From assembly GCF_001939735.1 (NCBI RefSeq), contig NZ_MJIL01000079.1, positions 62,370 to 126,369 on the forward strand: DNA of 64,000 nt, given 5' to 3'. Below are positions 13,449 to 17,663 of this stretch, piece after piece. The notes under the pieces were generated by a model. The model saw only the letters and a list, made by a program, of their open reading frames with translations, was not told the DNA's origin and ran no database searches. Made by a program: the position numbers and the translations under genes. The number at the start of each line of letters is the position of its first letter. Positions within the stretch are counted from its first letter, which is position 1. This DNA comes from Photobacterium proteolyticum. Its GTDB lineage: Bacteria; Pseudomonadota; Gammaproteobacteria; Enterobacterales; Vibrionaceae.

Positions 13449-13474
13449 AAAAACAGATCATTAGCTGTTTTTTT
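13449..13474 (+). terminator. AT-rich hairpin with T-run between kefC and the DUF4062 gene
   Basis: AAAAACAG (13449-13456) pairs with CTGTTTTT (13465-13472), followed by more T's. The stem is weak but the T-run is long, and it separates kefC transcription from the next unit. Confidence 0.5.
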
Positions 13475-13495: not shown

Positions 13496-13591
13496 CATAC
13501 GCATTTGATGTCATTGACAATGTGAATGACAGGGGACATTGCGCAATGCAGGGAAATATCCCTGTTGGCAGGTAAGGGACAAACGCCTTTT

Positions 13592-15865
13592 ATGGATAAC
13601 ATCTTTTTTTCTTTCTCTTTCTCTGAATTCAAGCCACTGGTTGAACACATTTCCAAACGTATGGGAGAGTCGGTAACCCTCCAGCGTTGTGGCCTGAAAC
13701 CTTTCCATTTGGCTCAACTGGAAGCCTTTAAAGCTGCACCGTTAGAAAACAGCCTGCAACAGGTAAGAAACAGCCGCTATATGATCTGTTTGCTGGGGCA
13801 GAATATCGGCAGCGAGGCTGAAAGTGGCAAGACTTATATCGAACTTGAAATTGAAGCCGCGCTGGAAGCCGATGTGGATGTCTTCGCCTTTCTGGTTGGT
13901 CCTGAATACGACACGCTCGGTAACATGCCGCCAGCTGTACGCCGAGTATATGAGCGCCTCAGTGACTGTGTCACAATCGGTCAGCTTGCAACAAACGATT
14001 CGGAGAGCGTAGCCCGGCAAATCACCAACAAGCTTGAAGACGATGTATGGCAAACGCTTGGTGAGGAAGAAAAACTGACCCTGGCCTCGGATTTGCTCGA
14101 TGTGTCCGGCTTTCCCCGTCACCGGCTCGACCGCCTGCCAGACAGTATTCGCAAGCAGTTAACCCGCATTTACCGCCCAGGCACGCCTGATAATACCAGC
14201 AGTCCATTAGCCGCTGATCTTGCCCAACGTAAGCAATGGGCATATCAGAGCCTAACGTATGGCCATCAGGAGCAGGCACTTAAAAACCTGCAAAAAGCCA
14301 TTAAAGAGTTCGGTTCAGACTTTTTCAGCTGCTTCTGGCTCAGCCGACTTTATGCTCTTCATGGCACCCGCGAAGAACACTGGCGCAGCAGCCATCAATA
14401 CGCCGAAACGCTGGAAAAAATGCTGAAGGATGAAGATACCCTGCTCACTTCGCTGCACCTTACCCACCTTGGCAGGGCGTATTGCTTTCAGAAAGACTTT
14501 GCCAAAGCAGAAAGCCTGTTGCTTCAGGCGATAGAGTCCTACCCGACATACGAAGCACTTGAGTTTCTGGCCGAAGTCTATTTGATGCAAAGGGAGCAAA
14601 ACAACAATATAGAATGGCTTCACAAAGCCGTTGATACCATGTCATCGCTATTGCGGTTCAAGCTCTCCCACTATGTGCTGGTTGCTGACCGATTTACTGA
14701 AAAATATCCCTATACCTTTACTGAAGTAAACACTGAGGTCTCCCATAAACTCGACAGCTTTTACTTCAACATGCACAAATCGCTATCAGACAACCAGCAA
14801 TGGGCAAAACAGCGATTGTCACTCTCCGCCCCGCAGCCACCTGCGCTTCTTAAAGATGCAGCACTACTGCAACGCGCCTATGTGGCTTCACAGTATGTAT
14901 GGCAGAACTATCGACTGCTGCGTCGGGCATCATCGCAGTTAACGACTCGCTATATTAATCTTCAACAACAGCTAGACCAGCTCCGTGAGCAAAAAAAGTT
15001 CCAGGATCAAGAGCATCAGCTATTATCAGAAGCCCTGACCGAAGCACGCGACTTTCTGAAGGCACGCCATGAACGGCTGGAAAAAGTCATTACGGCGAAA
15101 GAGCAAGAACAAGCAGCACACCGAAAATTGCAGGCTGGTAATATCATGGGTGTCATCATGTTCATTGCTATGGGGGCGGGATTCAACCAATCACCAAACC
15201 TAGGTATCCCGCTATTGGTCGGCTTCATTCTAACCTTGTGTATCAGGGCTGTTTTCAGCAAAAAGAAAGCCAAGGCAGTGAAAAGTTCCGAGGAAGAAGT
15301 CAACTACGTCAGTGAAATTAATCGCTCCCTGGCGCTTTCGCTATCCAGTTTCAACAACAAGATAGTCCAAATCGAACTGAAAACCCTGCTTCATCCGCTG
15401 CTCGAAGAGGTCGAGAAGCTGCGCGAGTCTGATATCACTGAGGCTGAACATCAACTCACTACCCTCTATCAAAATCAGTCAGAACAACTCAACCAAACCG
15501 CAGCAACCTGTCAGCAAGAGCTCGCTTTGCTCAGACATCAAACCAGCACCTGGCTCACTAAAGTTAACGAGTTTGAACAATACTCCGTTTCTGCTCACAG
15601 TGGGCAATATAACCACCTTATGACACGCAAAGGGCGTATCGACGTTGCACGCAAAGTCGAACTGGGTAGCGGTTCATTGGAATCAGCGCTCTTTACCGCC
15701 GAGGAAAGCTCGTTAACCGGCCGGGCGCTACATTTAGATGGCGATCGTCTTAAGGCCTGGTTCGATGACTCAATCGTTGCGCGCAGCCTGATAGCCCTGA
15801 CGGATAACCACACTCAAGCGCAACCAACCACACAGCAGCAGACAAACCATGAATATGGACAATAA
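13592..15865 (+). CDS. DUF4062/TIR-like + TPR + coiled-coil + 2TM protein
   Basis: 757 residues. Residues ~1-150 resemble DUF4062, a TIR-like Rossmann domain: NIFFSFSFSEFKPLVEHI at the first strand/helix, RNSRYMICLLGQNIGSEAESG, then the conserved YIELEIEAALEADVDVFAFL. Residues ~215-350 contain TPR-like helices (KQWAYQSLTYGHQEQALKNLQKAI; CFQKDFAKAESLLLQAIESYP). A coiled coil follows (~460-515), then a two-helix membrane hairpin (~516-555, MGVIMFIAMGAGF and LGIPLLVGFILTLCI), then a second helical region and a Ser/Gln tail. I start at ATG 13592 because the domain begins there; ATG 13526 would add 22 residues. The gene overlaps the SLOG-SLATT gene by 17 bases, so the two are coupled. Function (sensor or nucleotide-processing module of a conflict system) is inference. 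Confidence 0.75.
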   Translation: MDNIFFSFSFSEFKPLVEHISKRMGESVTLQRCGLKPFHLAQLEAFKAAPLENSLQQVRNSRYMICLLGQNIGSEAESGKTYIELEIEAALEADVDVFAFLVGPEYDTLGNMPPAVRRVYERLSDCVTIGQLATNDSESVARQITNKLEDDVWQTLGEEEKLTLASDLLDVSGFPRHRLDRLPDSIRKQLTRIYRPGTPDNTSSPLAADLAQRKQWAYQSLTYGHQEQALKNLQKAIKEFGSDFFSCFWLSRLYALHGTREEHWRSSHQYAETLEKMLKDEDTLLTSLHLTHLGRAYCFQKDFAKAESLLLQAIESYPTYEALEFLAEVYLMQREQNNNIEWLHKAVDTMSSLLRFKLSHYVLVADRFTEKYPYTFTEVNTEVSHKLDSFYFNMHKSLSDNQQWAKQRLSLSAPQPPALLKDAALLQRAYVASQYVWQNYRLLRRASSQLTTRYINLQQQLDQLREQKKFQDQEHQLLSEALTEARDFLKARHERLEKVITAKEQEQAAHRKLQAGNIMGVIMFIAMGAGFNQSPNLGIPLLVGFILTLCIRAVFSKKKAKAVKSSEEEVNYVSEINRSLALSLSSFNNKIVQIELKTLLHPLLEEVEKLRESDITEAEHQLTTLYQNQSEQLNQTAATCQQELALLRHQTSTWLTKVNEFEQYSVSAHSGQYNHLMTRKGRIDVARKVELGSGSLESALFTAEESSLTGRALHLDGDRLKAWFDDSIVARSLIALTDNHTQAQPTTQQQTNHEYGQ

Positions 15866-17600
15866 TACCGGCAGAATGCCACTGGTTATTGCTGTTACCG
15901 GGCATCGTGATATCGATGCCCTGCAAGATAGCCGTGACCACCGTAGCGTCTCGGATGCCTTTACAGCCTGCCTGCAATATTGGCTGGACACCGTCGGCCC
16001 GGATACTCCGGTTCACCTGTTATGCGGTATGGCACAGGGAGCCGATCTGTTGGCAATGAAGGCCGCCCTGCAATTGAAATCCGCAGGAGCAAGGATCACC
16101 CCGCTTCCCTGTCTTGTCGCTCCCCTATCTCAACTAAAGGAGAGCTACGACAACCAGGAGGACTATGAATACGCGGCAAAAATTTGCGAAAAGTATGATT
16201 GTACCATCACAGCACCCAGTCAATCTGTTACAAGTGACATGGATGAGGCATATCCTTATCTCTACCAAGGCGCAGTATTTACCCGCTATGCCAATGTCGT
16301 TATCGCCCTGTGGGACAGCAAACCAGCCAAAGGGCATGGTGGCACCGCCGATGTTGTCAAAATGCAGCTTGGCGATATTCCCGATATCCCGGAAATAAAA
16401 GCCTTGTTCCCCAAAGGATTCGATGGATCCAATGGTGGGGTTGTACAACATATTCCGGTCACGCGTTGCAGGCCTGCAAGCGATGAGGCCGATATCAGCT
16501 ATCTGACCACGCCTTTAAAAGGATCACCCTACTCCGTTTATCTGTCTTGCAGCCACCATCAAAGCATACAGGACTTTCTGTCTCACGAGTTCACCACGCT
16601 GCTTGAACAAATACGCCTGTTTAACCGCAAGTACAAGGGGAACGATACACAAAAGGCCGAACAAGACAGCGCACAGCCAGGCTTAACGCCAGCGTTAAAC
16701 CGGTTATTCCACTATGCCGATACCAAGGCGGTGAAAAGGCGGGATAAATACCAGAAATCTGTACTGACGTTTTTCTTCTGTGCATTTTTCGCCCTATTGG
16801 CACTGGAATTTGTTGAATGGGGTGTGAGCTCAGCCTCGGGGTATATGGTGACAGGCGGTGTCTTGTTTGCCCTTGTTGCCTGCATAGGCCTTTACTGGAC
16901 ATCCAGGCTCAGAGGCTGGAAGCGCGACTATCAGCTATATCGCGGCGTTGCCGAAGCCATTAGATTGAGAGGGTATCTGAACCTTGCCGATATTGCGCCC
17001 TGCGAAAGTTCATTGCTGCCAAGACAGATGCGCAATAACCTGCCACTGTTCCAGCAGGCTGTGTACTTAACCGAGCTGGCCTGGTGGCAGGACAAGAGCA
17101 TCATTGATCCTGACAAGATCAAACACGCCTGGATGGAGAGTCAGATCTCATACCTCAAAGCGCGGCTTACCGCGACACCCGGTAAAGGTTTTCGGGAGAT
17201 AAAAAAGATTCATAGCAACCTGCTAAAAATGCCAGGCCATTATCACCGAACCCTGGGCAAACTATCTAAATTGCTGATGACGAGTTTTGTGGTATTGCTG
17301 GCTTCATTGTTCACCTTGCAGCTCACCGGTACAGCCGATTACTACACCTGGCTCTACCTGGGCATCAAGGTAATGCTATTTGCCAGTGGTATTCTGGCCC
17401 TGTGGATCAACCTCGCAGGCTACGAGCACTTGTGTGTGAGTTACTCCCGGCTCATTGCCTTATACCAGCGCGCAGCTACTGAACTGGAGAACACCTCTGA
17501 TTATCACTACACCCTGCAGGAGCTGGCAAAAGAGGCCTTCAGCGAGCACTGTGAGTGGGTCTACTACAACGCCAAGTCGGAATATAACAGTGGGCATTAA
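15849..17600 (+). CDS. SLOG-domain + SLATT-like membrane protein
   Basis: 583 residues. Residues ~10-205 form a SLOG (DprA/LOG-like) Rossmann domain predicted to bind a nucleotide-derived signal: VIAVTGHRDI at the first loop, LLCGMAQGADLLAM (57-70), VIALWDSKPAKGHGGTADVV (151-170). Two membrane hairpins follow: TM ~304-322 and 331-350, then TM ~476-494 and 502-522. Each is flanked by long helices, with SYSRLIALYQRAATELE and a C-terminal EHCEWVYYN typical of SLATT/DUF4231-like 2TM effectors. SLOG sensors fused or linked to SLATT membrane effectors were proposed by Burroughs and colleagues (2015) as nucleotide-triggered defence systems. Partner of the upstream DUF4062 gene (17-base overlap). The domain calls rest on motif resemblance; the defence role is inference. 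Confidence 0.75.
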   Translation: MNMDNNTGRMPLVIAVTGHRDIDALQDSRDHRSVSDAFTACLQYWLDTVGPDTPVHLLCGMAQGADLLAMKAALQLKSAGARITPLPCLVAPLSQLKESYDNQEDYEYAAKICEKYDCTITAPSQSVTSDMDEAYPYLYQGAVFTRYANVVIALWDSKPAKGHGGTADVVKMQLGDIPDIPEIKALFPKGFDGSNGGVVQHIPVTRCRPASDEADISYLTTPLKGSPYSVYLSCSHHQSIQDFLSHEFTTLLEQIRLFNRKYKGNDTQKAEQDSAQPGLTPALNRLFHYADTKAVKRRDKYQKSVLTFFFCAFFALLALEFVEWGVSSASGYMVTGGVLFALVACIGLYWTSRLRGWKRDYQLYRGVAEAIRLRGYLNLADIAPCESSLLPRQMRNNLPLFQQAVYLTELAWWQDKSIIDPDKIKHAWMESQISYLKARLTATPGKGFREIKKIHSNLLKMPGHYHRTLGKLSKLLMTSFVVLLASLFTLQLTGTADYYTWLYLGIKVMLFASGILALWINLAGYEHLCVSYSRLIALYQRAATELENTSDYHYTLQELAKEAFSEHCEWVYYNAKSEYNSGH

Positions 17601-17627: not shown

Positions 17628-17663
17628 CTAGGCGATACCTGAATGAAATCAGGTATCGCCTAG
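17628..17663. terminator. 15-bp perfect hairpin between convergent genes
   Basis: CTAGGCGATACCTGA is followed by a 6-base loop and its exact complement. It sits 28 bases after the SLOG gene stop and 7 bases before the end of the opposite-strand lipoprotein gene, so it likely ends both transcripts. Only a short, interrupted T stretch follows on the plus strand. Confidence 0.7.

Follow-up and report, generated by a model that had tools for sequence, protein, structure and literature searches.

Thoeris and the DUF4062 enzymes are the described systems that lie closest to the gene pair reported here. In Thoeris, the gene of a TIR-type enzyme adjoins that of an effector, ThsA, with a nucleotide-binding domain; the SLOG domain is the ligand reader in SIR2-SLOG ThsA and reads isomers of cyclic ADP-ribose (cADPR), and ThsA of the TM-macro type is a membrane effector proposed to perturb membranes (PMC11204291). 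DUF4062 was first reported as a TIR-like NADase in 2026, both for bacterial defence proteins and for TEP1 of the human vault, with depletion of nicotinamide adenine dinucleotide (NAD+) as its mode of action, and both TEP1 and KpSwz, the Swarozyc protein, are TIR-like NADases requiring a glutamate (E97 in KpSwz) (PMC13174449). SLATT has been predicted to form pores in response to nucleotides (PMC7159879, PMC9503650), and RyR domains have been linked to cADPR cleavage in phages (PMC13232231). Within 64,000 nucleotides of Photobacterium proteolyticum (assembly GCF_001939735.1, contig NZ_MJIL01000079.1, positions 62,370 to 126,369), the whole of which is called the window, we analysed two overlapping genes encoding a DUF4062 protein (P1) and a SLOG-SLATT-SLATT protein (P2), which a preliminary description made from the sequence had proposed as a nucleotide-signalling defence system. 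Because relatives of P2 often adjoin TIR-type genes, the pair probably makes up a Thoeris-like system, so far uncharacterised, for signalling and membrane attack. No paper naming the pair was found in the open literature, and a query for SLATT with DUF4062 likewise returned none; print may differ.

The linkage was examined by searching TIR_2 and DUF4062 through 18 genomes picked by P2 sequence alone, which hold 58 matches; 14 of these, spread over 13 genomes, lie no more than 6 kb from P2. The observed 13/18 genomes stand against 0.23 expected, an expectation that assumes random placement in a set that is not fully independent, and the same linkage was seen in 11/16 when the window's genome and its sister were removed. 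Three genomes with contigs below 7 kb (G356, G410, G648) and those with weak P2 matches (E-value 4e-7 or weaker: G671, G518, G449, G752, G649, G427, G533, G703) were left out of the 18; in this excluded group a TIR gene lies two genes off in G671 and was seen by eye in G518. The TIR match of G777 is below the Pfam cut-off. Neighbouring open reading frames (ORFs) were called greedily by length, with miscalls possible in GC-rich loci, and locus L009 was corrected by hand. The neighbours include TIR-TPR proteins by Pfam (L009, L010, L011, L045, L057), a TIR protein (L048), a SIR2-TIR protein with a STAND protein (L056), a weakly matched TIR-FGE protein (L051), a DUF4062 protein that also matches TPR and, weakly, NACHT (L055), and a WD40 protein whose DUF4062 match came from the genome-wide search (L049).

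A second sample, consisting of 10 matched genomes of the order sample with G000, G722 and G776 excluded, gave a TIR or DUF4062 partner in 5/10 (G1074, G961, G805, G1118, G899), assigned by Pfam except for the TIR gene of G961, which was identified by eye from its likeness to the one in G1074. A run of P2, WD40 and TIR genes recurs in three genomes (L079, L080, L082), P2 stands with a TrkA protein (TrkA_N clear, RyR weak) and a DUF4062 protein bearing an AAA/NACHT-type ATPase at L081, and with a TIR-WD40 protein at L085. The other five genomes, where neighbours were read by eye save for the ion channels, showed ion channels (L083, L084) or nothing recognised. Large DUF4062 proteins lie near SLOG-SLATT at L049:9654-14663, L055:4159-7185 and L081:11997-15875 (minus strand); they carry WD40 repeats (L049) or an AAA/NACHT-type ATPase with TPRs (L055, L081) and are reminiscent of animal TEP1 and NPHP3.

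A quick tree of 32 P2 proteins, which has six long branches, places the window's P2 in a clade of 8 rows (SH-aLRT, the Shimodaira-Hasegawa-like approximate likelihood ratio test, 100), all of which are partnered, 4 with DUF4062 and 4 with TIR, and across the tree no fewer than 4 switches between these labels are required. Locus L046 encodes homologues of both P1 and P2 in reversed order, P2 coming first. As the linkage outlasts both an order flip and partner swaps, it argues for a functional tie. At L046 and L080, in genomes of different families, P2 lies near glycine cleavage genes (gcvP, by eye), a possible insertion hotspot where the partners differ, with DUF4062 in one and WD40 plus TIR in the other. 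A P2 subclade (SH-aLRT 100; L012, L083, L084) adjoins a voltage-type ion channel gene in the opposite orientation. At L050, L052 and L053, a patatin-like phospholipase and a TrkA_N-RyR protein form a recurring set within two genes of P2, and TIR genes are absent from the 6 kb around it; L052 and L053 are closely related to each other, with TrkA_N weak in the former and not listed for the latter.

Phage and plasmid records gave no match to P2 itself. The P2 of L009 as query matched 11 plasmid records, and all 6 that were inspected have annotated TIR genes. On Caballeronia pSBC2-4, the gene of a SLOG-DUF4231 protein precedes a TIR gene and then a WD40 gene, and plasmids of Rhizobium (two), Methylorubrum, Agrobacterium and Novosphingobium encode a short SLOG-only relative 1-2 genes from a TIR gene, three of these plasmid proteins having loop residues in common. 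A caspase-family gene is also present in the two Rhizobium, the Methylorubrum and the Agrobacterium plasmids. The SLOG family therefore accompanies TIR enzymes even without SLATT. The TIR, caspase-family and short SLOG genes form compact clusters that include or adjoin another TIR gene (L143, L145, L142, L141; Rhizobium, Methylorubrum and Agrobacterium plasmids), and the SLOG-only cousin of P2 there looks like part of a caspase-type TIR signalling system.

The distribution of the pair is sparse (the window's genome is itself among those counted here). P2, rare in its genus yet part of a wider proteobacterial family, occurs in 2/60 genomes, both within the genus, where 36 were searched, and in genomes evenly drawn from the order (13/394, by clade profile), the class (6/369, by single sequence) and the phylum (24/398, by profile). 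P1 at E 1e-10 occurs in 2/394 genomes of the order, both times adjoining P2. The genes upstream of the pair, which we take from their sequence to be kefF and kefC, had been given weight in the preliminary description; a meaning of that position is not supported, since none of the 18 other Photobacterium kefC loci examined has the pair (0/18). The sparse P2 and the absence of the pair from those loci indicate that it is accessory and not core. None of the results named beforehand as refuting the proposal came about: DUF4062 and, by its predicted fold, SLOG are present, the pair is not core, and the adjacency of P2 to TIR-type genes is kept well beyond chance.

The DUF4062 domain read in P1 was borne out by Pfam, at 34.5 bits against a cut-off of 24.7; a TIR_2 match (E 0.091) is below its cut-off. 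A profile built on six family members, the DUF4062 domains of the loci studied here, matched TEP1 (11gz, E 2.1e-19) and KpSwz (10wc, E 7.9e-4) in the PDB. T81, Y82, E84, E86 and I87 are invariant across the three P1 proteins (window, L002, L046), and the glutamate of the pattern is invariant in 11 TIR partner domains of P2 relatives. Counted by columns, Glu86 appears to align with an alanine of the solved KpSwz chain, which we take to be E97A. Weak matches agree with the TPR-like helices of the preliminary description, but all are below cut-offs; of the membrane hairpin, residues 537-555 alone exceed the hydropathy threshold, whereas the part at about 516-533 comes from reading of the sequence and from a low-confidence model with helices at 518-533 and 535-560 and long helices around them. 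The L046 homologue is 25% identical to P1 over residues 1-681 (E 2e-62) and begins at the same residue, which makes the ATG at 13592 the most likely start, as had been proposed; an in-frame ATG at 13526 is also present in the listed ORF. This homologue (L046:4580-7573, minus strand) has an extra C-terminal biotinyl/lipoyl domain (PF00364, E 1.9e-19), by eye resembling that of 2-oxoacid dehydrogenase E2 and perhaps an integrated lure or a localisation part.

The SLOG domain of P2 holds by its predicted fold, a Rossmannoid one with glycine-rich loops, though no Pfam SLOG model matches the window's P2. Three residues past GGT, all family rows (16/16) have V, I or T and not the LOG-type catalytic glutamate, a mark of active LOG enzymes only, so the domain should bind and not cleave its ligand. 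Four hydrophobic segments (301-319, 330-348, 472-490, 502-520) make up the two hairpins that had been claimed as SLATT-like, of which the hairpins stand and the SLATT profile matches stay sub-threshold. R365, A368, E369 and R372 of the first module are invariant (16/16), and after the second E566 is near-invariant and W570 invariant. Among 16 family members at E 0.01, DUF4231 was matched in 5, SLATT_3 in 3 and SLATT_1 in 1. Burroughs et al. (2015) reportedly proposed SLATT segments as membrane effectors in conflict systems. The domain reading of the pair as a whole was right (Table 1).

Table 1. Positions of the two genes, their domains and the flanking hairpins in the window
Feature	Position	Strand	Details
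Gene 1 (P1)	13592..15865	+	757 aa: DUF4062, TPR-like region, long helices, two-transmembrane (2TM) hairpin, long helices
DUF4062 (TIR-like) match, P1 residues 29-90	13676..13861	+	Pfam PF13271, E 2.4e-8
Codon of Glu86, predicted catalytic glutamate	13847..13849	+	in TYIELEIEAAL; W/Y-V/I-x-x-E pattern of TIR enzymes
TPR-like segment, P1 residues 293-347	14468..14632	+	TPR_16, E 7.9e-5, below cut-off
Putative P1 2TM hairpin, about residues 516-555	15137..15256	+	hydropathy and low-confidence model
EFEQYSVSAHSGQY, strongly conserved P1 C-terminal stretch	15569..15610	+	alignment with L002 and L046
P1/P2 overlap	15849..15865	+	17 bases
Gene 2 (P2)	15849..17600	+	583 aa: SLOG-SLATT-SLATT
SLOG domain, P2 residues 10-205	15876..16463	+	TGHR; GMAQGAD; LWD...GGT
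First SLATT-like 2TM module, P2 residues 285-379	16701..16985	+	NCBIfam SLATT_3, E 0.0033, below cut-off
Second SLATT-like 2TM module, P2 residues 465-556	17241..17516	+	NCBIfam SLATT_1, E 0.0088, below cut-off
13-bp hairpin downstream of kefC and ahead of P1	13320..13350		-21.4 kcal/mol, z -4.5
15-bp hairpin between P2 and convergent lipoprotein-like gene	17628..17663		-27.5 kcal/mol, z -8.0; no T-run

The ORF list contains the two long overlapping frames as claimed, and a convergent lipoprotein-like gene lies downstream of P2. Comparison with P. alginatilyticum, which has gene 2 at 90% identity, shows purifying selection on both genes (ratio of nonsynonymous to synonymous rates, dN/dS, 0.085 for P1 and 0.099 for P2; 0.027 for kefC), so the ORFs are not chance. 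Their GC content is near that of the window (P1 0.49, P2 0.51, window 0.50). Terminators had been proposed on both sides; stable hairpins do follow kefC and P2, but the one after P2 has no T-run, a T-tailed hairpin near 13449-13472 is no more stable than its shuffles (z -0.33), and a terminator consensus scan lists none of the three. Terminators apart, what the preliminary description observed is confirmed, and its interpretation is partly supported.

By membership features the pair is neither Thoeris nor Swarozyc. It resembles Thoeris in the adjacency of a TIR-type enzyme gene to that of an effector with a nucleotide-binding domain, in SLOG as the putative reader and in a membrane effector, and it most likely works like a Thoeris. 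Its enzyme, however, is a DUF4062 protein and not a TIR protein of the ThsB kind, several P2 relatives having TIR partners; in its effector, P2, SLOG is fused to a pair of SLATT-like 2TM modules and Pfam finds neither SIR2 nor macro at E 1, and PADLOC gave no Thoeris match for P1 or P2. With Swarozyc it shares a DUF4062 domain with a catalytic-type glutamate and a putative sensing C-terminal part. KpSwz is nevertheless described as a single protein, encoded by a stand-alone gene, whose HTH/winged auxiliary domain binds the phage portal (PMC13174449), whereas P1 has TPR-like, helical and membrane parts and a second gene, every P1 found (window, L002, L046) having an adjacent P2; the main text of that paper mentions neither SLOG nor SLATT. 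In firmicute phages a TIR-type gene likewise adjoins that of a 2TM SLATT protein, for which a response to ADP-ribose derivatives is predicted (PMC9503650), unlike the SLOG-fused double SLATT-like protein with a DUF4062 partner found here in Pseudomonadota.

The reading that we favour, with confidence a little better than even, is a two-gene NAD-derived signalling system with a Thoeris-like build from other parts. Domains, the predicted P2 fold, conserved residues, selection and the linkage of P2 with TIR or DUF4062 genes were computed; from them we infer the NADase activity of P1, the identity of its signal, the pore formation and the phage trigger. P1 would be a membrane-tethered TIR-like enzyme whose TPR/helical region probably senses infection and sets oligomerisation; once activated, it would consume NAD+ through Glu86 and release ADP-ribose or a derivative, which the SLOG domain of P2 would read, and ligand-driven assembly of the two SLATT hairpins may then breach the inner membrane, an abortive infection. 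A signal-maker with a SLOG-gated membrane effector is the most economical model.

Several results weigh against this reading. The published DUF4062 enzymes yield plain ADP-ribose, and KpSwz kills by NAD+ depletion and not by signalling (PMC13174449). P1 alone matched neither KpSwz nor TEP1 at E 1 by phmmer; the connection depends on Pfam and on the profile of the family, with no single KpSwz stretch passing alone, and comparing these DUF4062 domains with the TIR partners by profile gave no match. The structure model of P1, with a predicted local distance difference test (pLDDT) score of 46, is unusable, its own membrane hairpin could make P1 a self-contained effector, and the SLATT matches of P2 are below NCBIfam cut-offs. 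P2 rows without a TIR-type neighbour, among the 32, have patatin (4), an ion channel (3) or none seen (7). PADLOC gave no convincing match for P1, P2 or the lipoprotein-like neighbour, the three window proteins scanned, and on the 16 P2 family members gave one ShosA match (2.6e-4) and one CARF-TM match (0.004).

An unlikely alternative, though one with a precedent, is that P1 kills by NAD+ depletion as in Swarozyc, and P2 is a regulator or sensor, for example of membrane damage or ADP-ribose, that restrains or amplifies P1. The bacterial DUF4062 protein KpSwz acts alone by depletion (PMC13174449), and P1 has TPR-like, long helical and membrane parts of its own, which could allow both sensing and action with no further effector. 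The linkage of P2 nevertheless stays constant while the enzyme swaps between TIR and DUF4062, as expected of a shared reader, and a Pfam search, the one method used for this, finds no HTH/winged auxiliary domain in P1. Rather improbable is an ion-homeostasis or stress switch outside defence, in which P2 is a nucleotide-gated channel, TIR or DUF4062 enzymes set its ligand and the adjacency to kefFC reflects K+ physiology. It would account for the voltage-type channels of the P2 subclade and for the TrkA_N/RyR proteins at L050, L052, L053 and L081, but the kefC neighbourhood is not kept, the distribution is sparse, and several partners have defence-typical sensor domains (NACHT/STAND, WD40, SIR2). 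A single membrane complex without diffusible signal, in which membrane and helical parts hold P1 and P2 together and SLOG, serving as a fuel gauge, takes NAD+ itself as its ligand, fits the hairpins of both proteins (that of P1 partly by reading), the gene overlap and the joint presence at L046, but is highly improbable, as P2s of the same clade pair with TIR proteins of other sizes (689 aa at L048; 288-289 aa at L079, L080 and L082) and the L048 partner, the sole one of these compared, is without significant similarity to P1.

Returning to the two-gene signalling system, we tentatively extend it, at somewhat less than even confidence, to SLOG-SLATT-SLATT proteins as the membrane effectors through which NAD-derived immune signals would generally act, with reader and pore in one polypeptide and interchangeable makers (TIR, DUF4062, SIR2-TIR), DUF4062 here signalling to a separate effector rather than depleting NAD+. 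If this is true, the DUF4062 branch also signals, beyond the reported NAD+ depletion, and SLOG-SLATT gains a concrete enzyme, a ligand class and an output that would be testable as one two-gene construct. The swaps of partner among DUF4062, TIR and SIR2-TIR, together with the combination of patatin and RyR, suggest that the signalling network is modular.

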